From Candidatus Latescibacterota bacterium (GTDB taxonomy: Bacteria > Latescibacterota > UBA2968), in the NCBI GenBank assembly GCA_022823725.1, contig JAJEHL010000017.1, positions 62,001 to 126,000 on the forward strand: 64,000 nucleotides of DNA, given 5' to 3'. Positions 4,852-12,315 of the stretch are shown here, in pieces (position 1 is the stretch's first letter; every line of letters starts with the position of its first letter). The notes below the pieces were generated by a model. That model had not been told where the DNA came from and searched no databases. It saw only the letters and a program-made list of their open reading frames with translations. The translations under genes and the position numbers were made by a program.

Positions 4852-6372
4852 ATGGGATTTATCGATGCGGTAGATAAACACGTAAAGGAAGTATTTGCGC
4901 ATTGTACACACAAAAACGGCACAATGCTGGCAGACGGGCTCGACCTATCGACCACACAGCCGTTGACCTGGGAAGGAAACATACTTTCCAACCTCGCGTG
5001 TCAGCAGAATCTTCTGCGGGCACTGGACGCATTGGGAACATTGACCGCACAGGACAAATACCACAAACGCGCAGATGAATGGATCCGTTGTACCCTGGAT
5101 AAAATTCACGACCCAGAATCCGACCTGTTCTACTGGGGAGGTCACACCAGCTACGACCTCTTAACAGATGCACCAGTATTGGGCAATCACGAAATGAAGT
5201 GCGTCTATCCGCATTATGCGTACCTCTATAAAGTTCATCCCGAACGCCTGAGCCACTTTGTCAAAGCCGTCTGGCACGCGCACATCTGGGATTGGCCCAC
5301 CTTGCTCTTTAACCGGCATGGGATTTACGAACCGTGGAAAGAAAAGTGGGATGCAGAATTTGAAGGAGGTCCATTGCCAATTGTGGAAAACACCGCGCTC
5401 TCCTTTGTCAACACGGGAAGCGATTTAATCCTGAGCGGGGCAATGCTACACGCGCTTTCGGGTGATGAAACACCCTTGAAATGGGCAAAACATCTACTTT
5501 CCCGATACGACCAAATTCGACATCCCGAGACGGGATTGGCGGGATATCAGTTTAATCACCGCGATCCCTGTCGGGTGCGAGAATCGTTCAAACCGCCGTT
5601 TGGCGAACGGACAGATGTCAACGAAGTAACAATTATCACCAATGGCGTGATTCAAACTCGATATGGACGAGCCGCTGTCACCTTTCTCAACGCAGCGGAA
5701 GCCCTGGGCAGTGAAAAGGGCAAAGCATTTCTCGATGTGGTAACCGCAGATTTAGCAGCCCTGGCAACTCACTGTTATAATATCGATGACCACAGCTTTT
5801 ATCCCGCAATCAATGACGGCACCCGCCTCTATCCCGAAAATAGCAATGAAGGAATCGGCTATTGCCCGCCCACAAAACTGAGAAAAGTGCCTGCAAATGG
5901 ACTGATGTTCTTATCTTACGCGCGGGCATATCATCTGACGGGTATTGCGCGTTTTCAAAAAATAGCTCTTTCCCTCGCCAAAGGAATGGGCTGGGGCGAT
6001 TTAAGTACACCTGTGGATTTTGGATCTGGTGGTTCGCCTGCAAGTAATGAAGCGTGGGTAAACAAAGGACAGAACGATGCCTGCGCGTTATTCGGTCTAT
6101 TAGAACTCCACTCGGCAACAGGCGATAACGCGCTATTGCAGTCTGCCACCTCTCTTGGAGAACAATTGCTGCGGCAATATCAGGTAAACGGCCTGATTGT
6201 CTCAGATAGTCGAGAAGGCGAAACAAATATCGATACCGCGCTACCCCTCGCCCTATTGCATCTGGAAGGTGCGAGACAGGGAGATCGTTCATCGCTGCCC
6301 GATTTTTATCCGAACAACACCTATTTTGACCCAAAAATTGTGATTCGCCGCTGGGAAGAAGAGGATCGATAA
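4852..6372 (+). CDS. Six-hairpin (alpha/alpha-barrel) glycosidase- or lyase-like protein, function unassigned
   Basis: A 506-residue protein without a signal peptide, so probably cytosolic. The helical, Trp-, His- and Gly-rich repeats (TWEGNILSNLACQQNLLRAL near residue 40, HIWDWPTL, GSGGSPASNEAWVNKGQND) are the kind seen in (alpha/alpha)6-barrel carbohydrate enzymes such as unsaturated-uronidases, epimerases and some pectate lyases. I cannot name the family with certainty. ATG is preceded by AGGAGGG. It is the first gene of an operon followed after 20 bp by a zinc alcohol dehydrogenase. The context with oxygenases, dehydrogenases and an isomerase suggests breakdown of a carbohydrate-containing substrate. 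Confidence 0.6.
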   Translation: MGFIDAVDKHVKEVFAHCTHKNGTMLADGLDLSTTQPLTWEGNILSNLACQQNLLRALDALGTLTAQDKYHKRADEWIRCTLDKIHDPESDLFYWGGHTSYDLLTDAPVLGNHEMKCVYPHYAYLYKVHPERLSHFVKAVWHAHIWDWPTLLFNRHGIYEPWKEKWDAEFEGGPLPIVENTALSFVNTGSDLILSGAMLHALSGDETPLKWAKHLLSRYDQIRHPETGLAGYQFNHRDPCRVRESFKPPFGERTDVNEVTIITNGVIQTRYGRAAVTFLNAAEALGSEKGKAFLDVVTADLAALATHCYNIDDHSFYPAINDGTRLYPENSNEGIGYCPPTKLRKVPANGLMFLSYARAYHLTGIARFQKIALSLAKGMGWGDLSTPVDFGSGGSPASNEAWVNKGQNDACALFGLLELHSATGDNALLQSATSLGEQLLRQYQVNGLIVSDSREGETNIDTALPLALLHLEGARQGDRSSLPDFYPNNTYFDPKIVIRRWEEEDR

Positions 6373-6392: not shown

Positions 6393-7484
6393 ATGAAAGC
6401 TGCTGTTTTGCGCGAAGCGCATCAGCCAATTACTGTAGAAGATGTCGATATTGCCGACCCAATCGGACGCGAAGTATTGATACGCACCGCCGCCGCGGGA
6501 GTCTGCCACAGTGACGTCCATTTTCAGCAAGGACTTTACACCTGTGAGCTACCTGCCATACTCGGCCACGAATCAGCGGGCATTGTAGAGGCGGTTGGCC
6601 CAGACGCAACCTATGTAAAACCCGGCGACCACGTAATCACCTGTCTATCGGTCTTTTGCGGGCATTGCCGCTACTGCACCACAGGGCGTCCAAATCTGTG
6701 TGAAGACAGAGAATCAACCCAACGCAAAGAGACCGATAAACCGCGCCTATCTCAAGATGGCCAGGCATTCTTTCAGTTTGCGAACCTCGCCTCTTATGCA
6801 GAACAGTTGCTGGTACACGAAAATGCCGTATGCAAAGTCCGCGAAGACATGCCACTGGACAAAGCAGCCCTGATCGGATGTGGTGTGACAACCGGCGTTG
6901 GTGCTGCGCTCAACACCGCCAAAATAGAGGCGGGCAGTACAGTAGCCGTTGTCGGATGTGGCGGCATTGGCCTGAGTGCTGTACAGGGCGCGCGAATAGG
7001 TGGTGCAGGCCGTATTATTGCAGTAGATACCGGTTCTTCCAAATTACAACTGGCACGAGAATTGGGAGCCACCGACCTGGTCAATGCCAACGACGGCGAC
7101 CCCGTTGAACAAATTATGGACCTGACCGGCGGAAAAGGCGTGGCGTACTCTTTTGAAGCCGTGGGATTGAAACAAACTGCGGAACAGTGTTTTTACATAC
7201 TCGAAGAAGGCGGCACCGCCACGATTATTGGCATGATTCCCGAAGGCGTTAAAATTGAGCTTACAGGACAAAACTTTTTGTGCGAGCGCAAAATTCAAGG
7301 CTCAAGCATGGGATCCAATCGCTTTCGCGTGGATATGCCGCGATATGTAGATATGTATCTCATGGGCAACCTCAAGCTCGACGAAATGATCTCACACAAT
7401 ATTGCCTTAGATGATATTGACAATGCGTTCAAGGCTCTAATCGCAGGCGATGTCGCCCGGCAGATCATCATATTTGATGTTTGA
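6393..7484 (+). CDS. Zinc-dependent medium-chain alcohol dehydrogenase
   Basis: A 363-residue medium-chain dehydrogenase that oxidises an alcohol with NAD(P)+, or the reverse. Catalytic zinc ligands are visible as Cys in GVCHSD and His-Glu in GHES; the structural zinc site is the four-Cys cluster in CGHCRYCTTGRPNLC. The cofactor-binding loop is GCGGIGLSAVQG. The layout with QNFLCERKIQGSSMGS near the C terminus resembles the class III/NDMA-type Zn-dependent subgroup. ATG preceded by AGGAGG. It is the second gene of the operon, with only 10 bp to the following oxygenase gene. The substrate could be a hydroxylated product of the PhyH oxygenases; this is inference. Confidence 0.87.
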   Translation: MKAAVLREAHQPITVEDVDIADPIGREVLIRTAAAGVCHSDVHFQQGLYTCELPAILGHESAGIVEAVGPDATYVKPGDHVITCLSVFCGHCRYCTTGRPNLCEDRESTQRKETDKPRLSQDGQAFFQFANLASYAEQLLVHENAVCKVREDMPLDKAALIGCGVTTGVGAALNTAKIEAGSTVAVVGCGGIGLSAVQGARIGGAGRIIAVDTGSSKLQLARELGATDLVNANDGDPVEQIMDLTGGKGVAYSFEAVGLKQTAEQCFYILEEGGTATIIGMIPEGVKIELTGQNFLCERKIQGSSMGSNRFRVDMPRYVDMYLMGNLKLDEMISHNIALDDIDNAFKALIAGDVARQIIIFDV

Positions 7485-7494
7485 GGGACGAACG

Positions 7495-8289
7495 ATGAAT
7501 ACCGATCTAAACCGAATCCGAAGAGACGGTTGGTCCGTAATAGAAAGCGTGATCCCAGAAAATGAGGTAGATGCAATACGCGAACACGTATTGCAATCAA
7601 CCGGGATACACGGCAGAGCGAAAGCCGCAGAACAAGGCATCGGACACGTACCTGGATTTATACGCTACGACCAGTCCCTCGCGCCCTATCTCGCAGACAC
7701 AAGACTGATGGCTATCTTCGAAGCACTCTTTGGCTCCTTTGTCAAAGTGTCTTATGTCTCGGCGACCATCAACCGCCAGGGCAATCCGCGGGGCAGATGG
7801 CATGCAGACTGGCCGTTTAATCAGATCAACGCCTCACATGTGCTTGCACCTTATCCAGATGCGGTAATGCACCTCACAACCCTGTGGATGTTATCTCCCT
7901 TTACCCCTGAGAATGGCGGCACATTGATCGTGCCGGGTAGCCACCGATGGTCTAATAATCCAACCGGAAATATAGATGTGGATCCGACCGCACCTTATTC
8001 AACCGAGATGAATGCAACGGGACCGGCGGGAAGCGTCCTCGTGCTGGACAGCCGAATATGGCACGCAACCGCCCCCAATCAATCTCAAGAAGATCGGGTA
8101 TCCGTTGTCGTTCGCTACGCTCCCTGGTGGTTGAACACACGCGTGTTAATGCCGGGATCTGAAGAACGGAAAATGATGGTGGATGAAACCGGCTTGACCG
8201 ATAACGATCAGGAACCGGTACCGCGTCAGATTTACGAGGAATTGCCGGAAAACGCAAAACCCCTGTTCCGACACTGGATAAGCGACTGA
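7495..8289 (+). CDS. Phytanoyl-CoA dioxygenase (PhyH) family Fe(II)/2-oxoglutarate oxygenase
   Basis: A 264-residue double-stranded beta-helix oxygenase, expected to hydroxylate an unactivated carbon using O2, Fe(II) and 2-oxoglutarate. The iron triad is visible: H103-x-D105 in RWHADW and H190 in SRIWHATAP. R201 in DRVSVVVRY fits the 2-oxoglutarate-binding Arg. GGTLIVPGSH is a typical PhyH strand. Start placed at the ATG at 7495 (GAGGGA at 7483-7488); upstream in-frame codons overlap the dehydrogenase gene. Bacterial PhyH proteins act on very diverse small molecules, so the substrate cannot be read from sequence. It is the first of three PhyH genes in this operon. Confidence 0.85.
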   Translation: MNTDLNRIRRDGWSVIESVIPENEVDAIREHVLQSTGIHGRAKAAEQGIGHVPGFIRYDQSLAPYLADTRLMAIFEALFGSFVKVSYVSATINRQGNPRGRWHADWPFNQINASHVLAPYPDAVMHLTTLWMLSPFTPENGGTLIVPGSHRWSNNPTGNIDVDPTAPYSTEMNATGPAGSVLVLDSRIWHATAPNQSQEDRVSVVVRYAPWWLNTRVLMPGSEERKMMVDETGLTDNDQEPVPRQIYEELPENAKPLFRHWISD

Positions 8290-8300
8290 AAGGGAAAAGA

Positions 8301-9080
8301 ATGAGCACAGTCACCGAACAACATATCCAACAGTATCGAGAAGAAGGATACTGCCATGTGGAAGGATTGATCCCCGCCGAACTCATGGCAGACGCCTGGG
8401 CGCGAGTAAAGGAAATAGTAGATCATCCGCCAGATTGGAAACAAGGCAGATTTCAAGTTCTCAACCCCGAAATATATCGCGCCATATCAGGCGATCCAGT
8501 ACCCAAGGGTATTCAACGGCCGGGCCTGGAAGAAGAGGTATTTGCTAAGGTCGCAGAACACAGCAATATGGCAAACGCAATGGCGGGAGTTTTGGGCGGC
8601 GATGTGGAACTCTTCACAGATCAGATAGGGGTTAAACACGGCTGGATTGACACTGAGCAGGGTGGGTGCAGTTATTTTCACCAGGATTCGTGGTACTGGA
8701 AAATCGATCCGGAATTGGGGTGCAACTGCTGGATCCCGATGCAAGAAGTCGGAAAAAACGCCATCGCATTATCGGTCATGCCGCGCAGCCATATCGGCTG
8801 GAAACTCGTACCACACGAATCTTATTACGACGACCCGCCGATGTTCAGAAAATCCCAGATGAATGGCGACGAAACCCATGAACCTTTTAAGCGCCACCGC
8901 ATCCCGCTAAATCAGATCGATTACACCGATGAAGTCCTGGTCGAAATGAAACCGGGCGACGGCCTCTTCTTCACAAATTACACCTGGCATCGCAGCGAGC
9001 CAAATCGCACGGGTAACTCAATGGCATTTTACGCGATTGCATATCAGTTGAAAGACCCCAGATTTATTGTTAGCAGTTAG
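8301..9080 (+). CDS. Phytanoyl-CoA dioxygenase (PhyH) family oxygenase, second copy
   Basis: A 259-residue Fe(II)/2-oxoglutarate oxygenase. The metal ligands are H127-x-D129 in YFHQDSWYW and H230 in YTWHRSEPN, with Arg in EPNRTGN likely binding 2-oxoglutarate. It is only distantly similar to the preceding PhyH protein, so the pair is not a recent duplication and probably acts on different steps. ATG at 8301 lies 11 bp after the previous stop, with AAAGGG as ribosome-binding site. The CNCWIPMQEVGKNA segment is typical for PhyH homologues of planctomycete-like bacteria. Confidence 0.85.
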   Translation: MSTVTEQHIQQYREEGYCHVEGLIPAELMADAWARVKEIVDHPPDWKQGRFQVLNPEIYRAISGDPVPKGIQRPGLEEEVFAKVAEHSNMANAMAGVLGGDVELFTDQIGVKHGWIDTEQGGCSYFHQDSWYWKIDPELGCNCWIPMQEVGKNAIALSVMPRSHIGWKLVPHESYYDDPPMFRKSQMNGDETHEPFKRHRIPLNQIDYTDEVLVEMKPGDGLFFTNYTWHRSEPNRTGNSMAFYAIAYQLKDPRFIVSS

Positions 9081-9097: not shown

Positions 9098-9982
9098 ATG
9101 GCGCGTGTTGGGCTAATCGGTGTCGGAGATATGGGCAGTGGGATGGCTGCGAACATCTTGAAAAACGGCCATGAGCTTGTCGTTTATGATTTGCGCTCCG
9201 AACAATTGGAACCATTTGTCGAACAGGGAGCTTATGCGGCCAAAAACATAGGCGAAGTAGGCGGGCACGCAGACTTTGTGTTCGTCATGGTCATGAACGG
9301 CGATCAGATTAAGGCGATCTTAAACGACGGCTTGTTAGACAGCCTGAAACCGGGATCGACATTTATCTGCACAGCAACCATCTTGCGGTCGGAATTAGTC
9401 GAAATCGCGCAATCCTTAAAAGAGAGAGAGATTCGCGTCATAGACGCCCCGGTAAGCGGTGGCGCACCTGGCGCAGCGGCTGGCACACTGACAATGATGG
9501 TAGCGGCACAGCGGGATGTTTTTGAGGAATCGGCAGAAGTTCTCAACGCAGTCGGAGAAAACATCTTCCATGTCGGCGAAGAGATCGGAGCCGGACAAAC
9601 CGTGAAAGCGTGCCTGGCCGTCTTGACGGGCGTCACCTATGCGGGCATCTTCGAAACCCTATCACTGGGCGTAAAAGCCGGCGTAAAACCCGAGACCCTG
9701 TACGAAGTCATCAACACGAGTGTGGTCGGCAGCTTTTTATTTCGGGACACAACGCAAAACATCATGGAACGAAATTTTGCGGGCCAAAGCCGCATTGGCA
9801 CAATGTACAAAGACCTCGGAATCGCAAAAACACTGGGACGCGAATGTGGTGTCCCCCTGTTCACACTCTCAGCGGCGGCAGAGTGGTTTCAGGCGGGCAT
9901 CAGCGTAAACCCCGAAGAAGCGAACTGGGCCATCATCAAAATTTTTGAAAACATGCTGGACATTGAAGTAAAAAAGCGGTGA
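9098..9982 (+). CDS. 3-hydroxyisobutyrate dehydrogenase-like NAD(P)-dependent oxidoreductase
   Basis: A 294-residue beta-hydroxyacid dehydrogenase (HIBADH/tartronate semialdehyde reductase/L-threonate dehydrogenase superfamily). The Rossmann motif is GLIGVGDMGSGMA at residues 5-17. The substrate loop DAPVSGGAPGAAAGTL and the catalytic Lys in GQTVKACLAVL are present; the usual KLxNN is altered to KACLA, so substrate preference may differ from the classical enzymes. Start placed at ATG 9098 because GAAAGGA (9085-9091) is well spaced; an ATG at 9083 is less likely. It sits between an oxygenase and a sugar isomerase, as in pathways where 2- or 3-keto acids from sugars are processed. Confidence 0.82.
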   Translation: MARVGLIGVGDMGSGMAANILKNGHELVVYDLRSEQLEPFVEQGAYAAKNIGEVGGHADFVFVMVMNGDQIKAILNDGLLDSLKPGSTFICTATILRSELVEIAQSLKEREIRVIDAPVSGGAPGAAAGTLTMMVAAQRDVFEESAEVLNAVGENIFHVGEEIGAGQTVKACLAVLTGVTYAGIFETLSLGVKAGVKPETLYEVINTSVVGSFLFRDTTQNIMERNFAGQSRIGTMYKDLGIAKTLGRECGVPLFTLSAAAEWFQAGISVNPEEANWAIIKIFENMLDIEVKKR

Positions 9983-10000: not shown

Positions 10001-10861
10001 TTGAAACTCGGTGTAATTACAGATGGAATCAGCAGGGATTTTGAACACGCGTTGAATGTCATGGCGGAATACGGACTGAAATATCCAGAACTTCAGTTTG
10101 TATGGGATCGGGAAGTAGGAGACCACGACGCCGAGCAAGTGGCGCGCATAAAGACACTACTGAATCAGCACGCCATGGAAGTCTCATGCATCTCGCGACA
10201 CATTTTTGGCGGCTTGCCCGTATTGCAGACCGAAGCGGGAGATGCCGCATTTGAAGATCACGTATCGGGATTGCGGCGGTGCATCTCCCTTGCAAAAAAC
10301 CTCGGAACAAATATTGTCAGAATTATGAGTTGCAAAAAAGAAATGATACTATTTGGGTACAATGGCGCAGAAGACTGGATTGTAACGGCTGGTGCGTGGG
10401 ATAAACTGGTAAAACTCATGGCCGTACCCGTTCAAATAGCCGAAGAAGAAGGCATAACACTCGTGGTTGAAACGGGTAATAATGCCATGATCACATCGGG
10501 ATATCTGGCGCGAAAGTTGATCGACGAACTGGGTAGCTCCCATCTCAAACTGCTATGGGATATACCCAACACAATGTACTGTACGGATGTCCCCTATCCC
10601 GATGCCTACAATGAAATTCGAGATTATATCGGCCATATTCACATCAAAGACGCAAAAGCCGATATAGCGCGTGCCACCGTTGGATTCTATCCCCTGGGCG
10701 AAGGCGATGTGGGACCATATCTGGAACCCATTGCAAACGCGCTCAAACGCGATGGGTATGCAGGCGCAATCTCTTACGAAAGCGTCTATCGTCCCAAAAG
10801 CGGCACTTATGAAGACGGATTCAGAGCGAGCGTTGCAAAATTTTTGGAAATTTTCAGTTGA
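10001..10861 (+). CDS. Sugar phosphate isomerase/epimerase (xylose isomerase-like TIM barrel)
   Basis: A 286-residue AP-endonuclease-2-like TIM barrel, expected to isomerise or epimerise a keto-sugar or inositol derivative using a divalent metal. Likely metal ligands lie in LVVETGNNA (Glu), LLWDIPNTM (Asp), GHIHIKDAKAD (His/Asp) and AISYESVY (Glu). Start is TTG at 10001, supported by TAAGGAG (9987-9993) 7 nt upstream and a natural N terminus MKLGVITDG. 18 bp follow the dehydrogenase gene. It overlaps no neighbour; the next gene begins 11 bp downstream. Confidence 0.83.
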   Translation: MKLGVITDGISRDFEHALNVMAEYGLKYPELQFVWDREVGDHDAEQVARIKTLLNQHAMEVSCISRHIFGGLPVLQTEAGDAAFEDHVSGLRRCISLAKNLGTNIVRIMSCKKEMILFGYNGAEDWIVTAGAWDKLVKLMAVPVQIAEEEGITLVVETGNNAMITSGYLARKLIDELGSSHLKLLWDIPNTMYCTDVPYPDAYNEIRDYIGHIHIKDAKADIARATVGFYPLGEGDVGPYLEPIANALKRDGYAGAISYESVYRPKSGTYEDGFRASVAKFLEIFS

Positions 10862-10872
10862 GGAGGACCTCC

Positions 10873-12315
10873 ATGGCTGATCCAATGCGGTTATTGACCG
10901 ATGAAGAGGTACAGCGGTTTATCGTGGATGGATGCATGACAGTTCACGCGGATTATCCGCCTTCTTTCCACGCGAATATCCACGATCAAATTGAGACAGT
11001 CTTTGAAAAAGAAGGCAACCCCGGCAATAACATCTTACCCCGGCTACCACAGATTGGACAGGTATTTGAACACCCCAACGTAAAAGGGGCACTGACCAGC
11101 TTACTGGGACCGGGATACATCTTGAACCCCCATCGACATTGCCACCTGAATCCCCCAGGCCGAAACGGACAGCGATGGCATAAAGACTGTTATGTATATG
11201 ACCACAATCTGCGGCATCCAAAATTCTACTGGGTGCTCGCCTTTTATTTTCCCCAGGACACGACTGAAGACATGGGACCTTCGGGCGTATTACCCGGCAT
11301 GCAAATATACAAAACCATCAGCGATGTAAATCCCGTACAAACGAAAGAAAAAGCGCGGGCATTTTGCGGACCTGCGGGCACAGTAGCCCTTATACACTTC
11401 GACTCCTGGCACCGCGCAACAGAGAACACCAGCGATAAAAAACGGTACATGCTAAAATTCCAATTTGCGCGCACACAAGAACCGCAAAAACCCACCTGGG
11501 ATCACCAGAGCCGTGCGTGGTCTCCGGGCATTGAAGATCGGCATCCAGCCATATCACAAGACGTGTGGAATTGGATGTGCGGAAACGCCCAAAAAGAACG
11601 CGACCCGCAACAGGGGAATCTGAAAAATTTGATTCGCGTCCTGAAGAATGGATCGGAATATGAACGACTGGACGCGGCGTATAAACTCGCTGAATTTGGC
11701 GCGGAAGCAGTACCTGAACTCATCGCCGCAATGCGAGAGGAAACACTCGCGGCAATTGATGAAACAGAAGCCAAAACACCGGACAATGCCCATGGAACGA
11801 ATCCCACGAGCGGATGCGCGGCTCTATCCCTCGCAACCATAGGAAAACCCGCAGTCTCCGCCCTCACTGAAACATTATCAGACAACCACTGGTGGGTGCG
11901 AGCGGTTGCTGCCAATGTATTGGGACGCATGGGATCAGACGCAGTTACATCTGCGCCCGCATTGAGAACCGCGACAAAAGACAATCACTGGTGGGTGCGC
12001 CGCAACGCAATCGAAGCACTGGGCGCAATCGGCGATTCTTCTCCAGAGCTACTCTCCGATCTGACAGAAGCACTCGGCGATGAAGACTATCGCGTGCGCC
12101 GCAACGCAGCCCTCACCCTCGCAAAATTTGGAGAATCGGGCGATATCGCAGTTGAAGCACTATCAACAATGCTCGAAGACGAAAATCGCTACAACCGCTT
12201 TTACGCGACTTATGTATTGCAGCAAATCGGCACACCTGCTGCACGAGATATATTATTCCACATCCTATTCAATTCTCGCTGGTGTCCCATCACTACAAAA
12301 GACGATATGTACTGA
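10873..12315 (+). CDS. PhyH-type Fe(II)/2-oxoglutarate oxygenase fused to C-terminal HEAT repeats
   Basis: A 480-residue two-part protein. Residues 1-230 form a PhyH oxygenase with H103-x-D105 in RWHKDC and H180 in DSWHRATEN. Residues ~250-465 are HEAT-like (PBS-lyase-type) helical repeats: LDAAYKLAEFGAEAVPEL, two near-identical DNHWWVR units at 338-343 and 370-375, and DYRVRRNAALTLAKFG. Start placed at the ATG preceded by AGGAGG (10861-10866). It is the last gene of the operon. HEAT repeats usually bind proteins or pigments, so this enzyme may act on a macromolecule or within a complex; inference. Confidence 0.83.
   Translation: MADPMRLLTDEEVQRFIVDGCMTVHADYPPSFHANIHDQIETVFEKEGNPGNNILPRLPQIGQVFEHPNVKGALTSLLGPGYILNPHRHCHLNPPGRNGQRWHKDCYVYDHNLRHPKFYWVLAFYFPQDTTEDMGPSGVLPGMQIYKTISDVNPVQTKEKARAFCGPAGTVALIHFDSWHRATENTSDKKRYMLKFQFARTQEPQKPTWDHQSRAWSPGIEDRHPAISQDVWNWMCGNAQKERDPQQGNLKNLIRVLKNGSEYERLDAAYKLAEFGAEAVPELIAAMREETLAAIDETEAKTPDNAHGTNPTSGCAALSLATIGKPAVSALTETLSDNHWWVRAVAANVLGRMGSDAVTSAPALRTATKDNHWWVRRNAIEALGAIGDSSPELLSDLTEALGDEDYRVRRNAALTLAKFGESGDIAVEALSTMLEDENRYNRFYATYVLQQIGTPAARDILFHILFNSRWCPITTKDDMY

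Follow-up and report, generated by a model that had tools for sequence, protein, structure and literature searches.

The window analyzed here is a stretch of 64,000 nucleotides from a Candidatus Latescibacterota bacterium (assembly GCA_022823725.1, contig JAJEHL010000017.1). Within it, a gene that joins a PhyH domain to HEAT repeats is the last of a tight same-strand run starting at a pectate lyase gene, and a DUF5916 gene comes next (Table 1). The run from the pectate lyase to the PhyH-HEAT gene probably forms one operon. The reading frame of the fusion gene is uninterrupted from the ATG at 10873 to the stop codon ending at 12315 and encodes 480 amino acids; an alternative TTG start at 10858 would yield 485 amino acids, and stops interrupt the frame read on the opposite strand across the gene.

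Table 1. Features of the putative operon and of the PhyH-HEAT gene (positions are those of the window)
Feature	Position	Strand	Remarks
Pectate_lyase_2 (PF06917), first gene of apparent operon	4852..6372	+	E 1.2e-107
Zinc-type alcohol dehydrogenase	6393..7484	+	
Separate PhyH enzyme 1	7495..8289	+	E 5.7e-20
Separate PhyH enzyme 2	8301..9080	+	E 1.7e-20
3-Hydroxyisobutyrate-dehydrogenase-like (HIBADH-like) reductase	9098..9982	+	E 1e-43
Xylose-isomerase-like TIM barrel (PF01261)	10001..10861	+	E 1e-26; ends 11 nt before fusion gene
PhyH-HEAT fusion gene	10873..12315	+	480 aa plus stop
PhyH/double-stranded beta-helix oxygenase domain, residues 5-204	10885..11484	+	Pfam 43-191; structure matches FtmOx1, TlxIJ, AndA, GriE over about 5-204
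HxD iron ligands H103, D105	11179..11187	+	Invariant 126/126
Loop 107-112 (YVYDHN) after HxD	11191..11208	+	Clade-specific, conserved, low model confidence
Third iron ligand H180	11410..11412	+	Invariant 126/126
R191, presumed 2-oxoglutarate-binding arginine	11443..11445	+	Invariant 126/126; role by family knowledge
Linker motif W232-N-W234	11566..11574	+	Weighted conservation 0.96 and 1.00
Five HEAT repeats, residues about 248-467	11614..12273	+	Anchor Arg 265, 343, 376, 409, 442
Clade-specific insert AKTPDNAHGTNPTS, residues 300-313, between HEAT repeats 1 and 2	11770..11811	+	
DNHWWVR copy 1, residues 337-343	11881..11901	+	
DNHWWVR copy 2, residues 370-376	11980..12000	+	
DEDYRVRRN, recognition helix start of repeat 4, residues 403-411	12079..12105	+	
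NRYNRF, recognition helix start of repeat 5, residues 438-443	12184..12201	+	
C-terminal tail SRWCPITTKDDMY, residues 468-480	12274..12312	+	RW(C) kept in most clades

Judged from its sequence, the gene product is predicted to consist, in this order, of an intact PhyH-type Fe(II)/2-oxoglutarate (2OG) oxygenase, five HEAT repeats, and a C-terminal tail that is conserved. In Pfam, residues 43 to 191 match PhyH (PF05721) above the curated cut-off (E 3.9e-8, 34.3 bits against 22), and the second half matches HEAT_2 (PF13646; E 1e-28, 99.9 bits against 27.7), HEAT (PF02985; E 2.2e-16, 58.8 bits against 23.5), and HEAT_PBS (PF03130; E 4.8e-16, 57.9 bits against 20.9), scores that exclude a chance match for either half. 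The initial annotation had described a fusion with all metal ligands in place, and this is borne out: H103, D105, H180, and R191, the last of which we take from knowledge of the PhyH family to be the 2OG-binding arginine, are invariant in all 126 distinct full-length sequences of the family. The two DNHWWVR boxes that it reported are present as well, with their starts 99 nt or 33 residues apart, not 32 as first given. The boxes are identical as protein and share 20 of 21 bases, a match that is partly due to tryptophan having a single codon.

AlphaFold2 models were obtained for the window protein (pLDDT 86.1, pTM 0.87) and for an ortholog that is about 52% identical (pLDDT 83.8, pTM 0.85), and the pTM values imply that the PhyH and HEAT domains are predicted in a definite mutual position. 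In both models, the structure matches of the N-terminal half are PhyH enzymes and those of the C-terminal half are artificial HEAT-like binders (alphaRep proteins); the predicted double-stranded beta-helix matches TlxIJ, SptF, AndA, and FtmOx1. The window model is of low confidence at residues 107 to 115, 308 to 310, and 469 to 480, and the ortholog model is low in the matching stretches. These stretches correspond to the loop that follows HxD, to the NAHGTNPT insert, and to the C-terminal tail, and each of them is highly conserved in the clade to which the window gene belongs.

Distribution and variation of the PhyH-HEAT family

At E values up to 1e-60, the family was found in 51 of the 386 genomes of relatives searched: 46 of the 47 genomes of the class (Latescibacterota-like), none of 17 elsewhere in the phylum, and 5 of about 322 beyond it (G102, G175, G247, G312, and G379), a split counted by hand from the listing, with G012 counted as a genome on a single match. 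The source genome (G000, 5.34 Mb) contains four fused paralogs. Named relatives in a genome collection (23 loci) are titled Latescibacterota, Gemmatimonadetes/Gemmatimonadota, and others, these being titles of metagenome bins. The family is old. The initial annotation regarded the fusion as unusual, which is true of PhyH enzymes in general and does not apply within the class. Nor does the fusion appear to be already characterized as a small-molecule hydroxylase: it is common in the class, but no paper describing it was found in the open-access literature (subscription papers and preprints being outside the reach of the search), even though PhyH oxygenases and HEAT repeats are each well known. 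In the accessible part of a paper on sponge Latescibacterota, HEAT is absent from the list of repeat domains.

Homologs were gathered by score (E up to 1e-30 in one search and up to 1e-60 in another), so that HEAT-less relatives near 1e-20 would be under-collected and the statement that the PhyH domain is always fused is valid only for the collected set. At E up to 1e-20, 175 open reading frames (ORFs) were retrieved, 170 of them full length and 126 distinct. The other five comprise pieces at contig ends (L059 and L060), pieces cut at the locus end (L008 and L104), and one true HEAT-less protein (L006). The 126 distinct fusions from the 170 loci were aligned and placed in a tree of several clades, which was built by a quick method, with long branches flagged and a root for drawing only.

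Several elements vary between the clades of this tree. In the tail, R469 and W470 have a conservation of 0.99, and the RW(C) motif is kept in nearly all clades, the exception being one clade of 17 rows (L044:276-1691 on the minus strand, L105, L126, and relatives) that lacks it and in which most proteins end near residue 457. Several members of that clade have a stop within or just beyond the match. DNHWWVR itself is, from alignments to alphaRep proteins, the usual D....VR signature of HEAT-like repeats, and the identical HWW in both boxes is the unusual feature, one that is kept by selection. Within clade A, that of the window gene, the second box reads D-x-HWWVR in all rows of the motif table, and in remote members HWLVR, HWYVR, or HWPVR takes the place of HWWVR in the first box. 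A recent tandem duplication was considered and rejected as the main cause of the twin boxes, since both persist in divergent orthologs and the first drifts independently.

The history of the window gene may not have been strictly vertical: in a comparison with L018 to L024, its ortholog in one genus of another family is 75 to 79% identical, whereas the orthologs in its own family outside the genus are more distant (59 to 65%), and this pattern possibly reflects horizontal transfer or unequal loss. No family match was found in phages, plasmids gave only HEAT-only or PhyH-only partial matches (six records), and a search of viral model structures gave only single-domain PhyH-type or repeat matches. 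At one locus, an 83-amino-acid ORF (L041:13260, plus strand) repeats the last 77 residues of the fusion at 86% identity. It lies about 3.8 kb downstream of the intact fusion gene and immediately ahead of the DUF5916 gene, an arrangement that looks like duplication of the 3' end of the fusion by an insertion.

Conservation of the HEAT face and the active-site loop

In alphaRep repeats, positions 18, 19, 22, 23, 26, and 30 are the randomized, binding positions (PMC3754942). These positions were mapped onto the fusion via the VR motif (two residues before VR, two after, and two further on), which places the WW pairs on the face presumed to act in recognition. Among the 37 rows of clade A (effective number 18), mean entropy is 0.61 bits at the recognition positions of repeats 2 to 5, 1.08 at structural positions, 1.88 at the remaining HEAT positions, and 1.12 across the PhyH half (recognition versus other, p 7e-7). 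If the comparison is widened to all five repeats and to position 30, the values are 0.99 versus 1.74 bits (p 2e-4). Outside clade A, for five repeats and six positions, recognition and other positions are equally variable (2.22 versus 2.25 bits; p 0.43). Five groups were chosen by the analyst from the tree, clade A by motif and the others by branch, and because they were hand-picked, the group p-values are descriptive: the recognition face is conserved in three of the five, namely, clade A, the GGNP/GRNP group (1.08 versus 1.67 bits; p 0.003), and the WWLRA group (1.06 versus 1.51; p 0.02), and not in a 20-row group (1.26 versus 1.45; p 0.13) or a 26-row group (2.04 versus 1.89; p 0.79). Positions that are hypervariable in designed HEAT binders are thus, in clade A, more conserved than the catalytic domain, and they differ freely between clades.

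The same clade specificity is seen beside the active site. Among the 26 PhyH-half residues that are conserved in clade A and variable elsewhere, 14 lie within residues 85 to 115 around HxD where 3.4 are expected (p 6e-8, an optimistic value because neighboring positions are not independent). The insert AKTPDNAHGTNPTS follows the same pattern, with a mean entropy of 0.37 bits in clade A and a missing or different sequence in other clades. It is mainly because of this joint clade specificity that the HEAT face, the active-site loop, and the insert are taken to serve the same ligand, which the face and the loop would both touch. Direct-coupling analysis gave no excess of interdomain pairs (23 in the top 50 versus 24.7 expected) at an effective depth of 77, which is hardly able to detect one.

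The pattern also bears on a purely structural role, in which the repeats would stabilize the oxygenase, replace its usual C-terminal helices, and recognize nothing. The predicted arrangement of the domains is definite, and some PhyH structure alignments extend into the final HEAT repeats: 30 of 33 PhyH rows do so for the window model and 28 of 40 for the ortholog model (counted by hand from the listings, with several rows being entries of one enzyme). For the window model, the extension adds up to about 30 residues at a higher rmsd (for example, 223 residues at 4.6 Å for 9ler_A versus 194 at 2.7 Å for 9j1h_B). For the ortholog model, many of the FtmOx1-type rows extending to the last repeat gain about one residue over rows stopping at 192 to 193 (188 versus 187), and the argument from alignment extension is therefore thin, offering only a hint in the models that the solenoid may return to the catalytic core. 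A pure scaffold, however, is not expected to keep alphaRep-type positions above the conservation of the catalytic domain in one clade and to change them in another, and such a role seems very improbable.

Gene neighborhoods and the putative substrate

Within the genus, 6 loci have flanks, and most of the gene run upstream of the fusion recurs in them, although not every gene is present in each. Outside the genus, the neighbors differ and include PhyH with an octopine-dehydrogenase-like gene, sulfatase, DUF6785, MoxR/DUF58, UbiD, Gfo/Idh/MocA, and MR_MLE, so the link to pectin is local. A survey of 571 slots around 110 family genes revealed no constant partner gene, the largest neighbor clusters having 17, 14, and 14 members at mixed positions. 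The raw counts among the 110 genes are 20 for Gfo/Idh/MocA-like, 13 for sulfatase, 12 for MR_MLE, and 11 for TIM-barrel neighbors, and they are not independent because, in one genus, the upstream TIM-barrel gene is common to 10 loci. Downstream of the family gene in one genome outside the phylum lies, directly adjacent, a 994-amino-acid WD40 repeat ORF (L091:3978-6959, minus strand; G102:C76).

The closest HEAT-less relatives are also located in sugar or polyol gene clusters. The nearest one found, the 272-amino-acid WP_267009352, is encoded on a plasmid of Streptomyces sp. NBC_00316 in a stretch with iolD, a TIM-barrel gene, and a Gfo/Idh/MocA gene. It is 44% identical to the 272-amino-acid HEAT-less protein of the source genome (L006), whose gene is followed by genes for a TIM-barrel protein and a 2-hydroxyacid dehydrogenase; the adjoining TIM-barrel gene is of the same kind as that beside the fusion gene. 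These sisters are about 26 to 33% identical to the PhyH half and share its HxD and RYM.K motifs but, unlike the fusion, lack both the HEAT half and the NGN motif near residue 50.

The best-supported reading, to which we assign a probability of about one half, is that the fusion is an active 2OG oxygenase with a HEAT recognition module in cis and a small substrate of the sugar, polyol, or uronate type. It builds on what was observed directly, namely, the domain content, the invariance of the catalytic residues, the retention of the fusion in the collected set, the clade-wise conservation of the HEAT face, and the clade-specific cluster beside the active site. The PhyH half would be catalytically competent and would hydroxylate or oxidatively demethylate a small molecule or short oligomer, and the C-terminal HEAT solenoid would be a permanent substrate-recognition module, fixed together with the PhyH half as a unit. 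One binding site, tuned per clade, would be made up jointly of the solenoid's concave (helix-B) face, the NAHGTNPT insert, and the loop just after HxD. That the repeats help to choose what the enzyme oxidizes is suggested by the conservation of the binding face together with the active-site loop, and a small sugar-type substrate is suggested by the operon, with its pectate lyase, dehydrogenases, sugar-isomerase-like protein, and two PhyH enzymes. The ligand is probably small and sugar-like, perhaps acidic, and the type of reaction is proposed with the same reserve.

A more specific version, which we regard as rather doubtful, casts the solenoid as a carbohydrate-recognition clamp in a pectin-type catabolic operon. 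Here, the face, with its Trp pairs and arginines (W340, W341, W373, W374, R377, R407, R410, R439, Y440, and R442), and the NAHGTNPT loop would hold an acidic or methylated oligosaccharide that the PhyH center hydroxylates or demethylates. If so, HEAT repeats would give small-molecule 2OG oxygenases an exchangeable specificity module, and each clade would have a single specificity of its own.

A conserved HEAT face, however, equally suits a conserved protein ligand, and the solenoid could instead dock a protein or other polymer and present it to the oxygenase, as the initial annotation had proposed. HEAT repeats commonly bind proteins, and among solved structures, those that score best against the HEAT half are alphaRep-type artificial protein binders. 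In one alphaRep complex, the contacts of one partner all come from the randomized positions (PMC3754942), and the same positions are conserved within clade A. Against a macromolecular substrate stand the lack of a recurrent partner gene in the mostly metabolic contexts and the occurrence of the HEAT-less sisters in small-molecule gene clusters. HEAT-like repeats can also hold small ligands, as in the bilin lyases, to which the matches here are weak. We therefore consider a protein or polymer substrate unlikely. The part of the earlier proposal that identifies the HEAT half as a binding surface is upheld by the clade-specific conservation; the step from there to a macromolecule is not, given that no partner gene is constant and that the neighbors are largely sugar-catabolic or oxidoreductase genes.

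Alternatively, the HEAT half might dock onto a separate HEAT-less PhyH protein or another pathway enzyme, giving a hetero-oligomer or metabolic complex. A PhyH gene lies within three genes of 31 of the 110 family genes, on the same strand in 33 of the 35 such slots, and two are present in the window operon; the TlxI-TlxJ heterodimer of PhyH proteins provides a precedent (PMC11880133). Conversely, 79 of the 110 have no PhyH neighbor at that distance, 5 of the 35 slots are occupied by other members of the fused family, and PhyH is very common in the source genome, with 154 PF05721 places in 5.34 Mb (the same search gives matches in 1 of 14 control genomes). Such docking is decidedly unlikely.

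If the reading of a recognition module in cis is correct, HEAT repeats would serve enzyme specificity within the same chain instead of protein docking. A recognition domain that is conserved within a clade and changed between clades would offer a handle on substrate choice in one branch of the superfamily, and domain swaps and point mutants would become direct tests of that choice.

Comparison with known systems and other fusions in the source genome

PhyH-type oxygenases of natural-product pathways (FtmOx1, AndA, TlxIJ, SptF, GriE, SnoK, and KanJ) have in common with the fusion the jelly-roll fold, the HxD...H triad, and the 2OG arginine. The window model aligns with FtmOx1 (9j1h_B) at Z 18.8 and an rmsd of 2.7 over 194 residues and with TlxIJ at a Foldseek E value of 3.7e-9. 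Unlike the fusion, these chains have about 240 to 290 residues, are without HEAT repeats as far as the matches show, and reach 11 to 19% identity. In both AndA and TlxIJ, the substrate pocket is completed by a loop from one monomer together with the jelly roll (PMC11880133).

For the HEAT half, the alphaRep proteins share both the repeat fold and the consensus (phmmer E values down to 8e-45), and an alphaRep-fused ComF (7p0h) aligns at Z 19.9 and an rmsd of 3.9 over 198 residues. These proteins are designed and lack an oxygenase domain, and the positions that vary among them are fixed within a clade in the fusion. The PBS-lyase HEAT-like proteins CpcE, CpcF, and NblB have HEAT-like repeats as well but no oxygenase domain. 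Membership in the CpcE/CpcF bilin lyases was rejected, the scores of 38.6 of 330 and 34.3 of 220 bits being far under the curated NCBIfam cut-offs. Deoxyhypusine hydroxylase likewise combines HEAT repeats with iron-dependent hydroxylation (a weak match, E 0.0016), but in that enzyme the HEAT repeats themselves bind two irons via His-Glu motifs. An iron site of this type was rejected for the fusion, in which no HE occurs in residues 241 to 480 and only 5 of the 126 rows have two or more.

A PhyH glut similar to that of the source genome is present in Poribacteria, another sponge-associated phylum, where the functions were reported as mostly unassignable (PMC3909097). Several other ORFs of the source genome also join PhyH or HEAT to further sequences. 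For example, a 744-amino-acid ORF (L207:1093-3324, minus strand; G000:C42) carries an alginate lyase domain (PF05426, E 3.2e-83) and PhyH in one frame, that is, a polyuronide lyase fused to an oxygenase. Four ORFs of 588 to 711 amino acids (L203, L204, L205, and L206; G000:C45, C46, C36, and C49) have PhyH in the C-terminal half, preceded by about 300 to 420 N-terminal residues without any Pfam match. Finally, domains of the multiheme-cytochrome type are combined with HEAT repeats in one ORF at two loci (L208:790-2664, minus strand, and L211:354-2579, plus strand; G000:C26 and C46), the second of which contains TPRs too.
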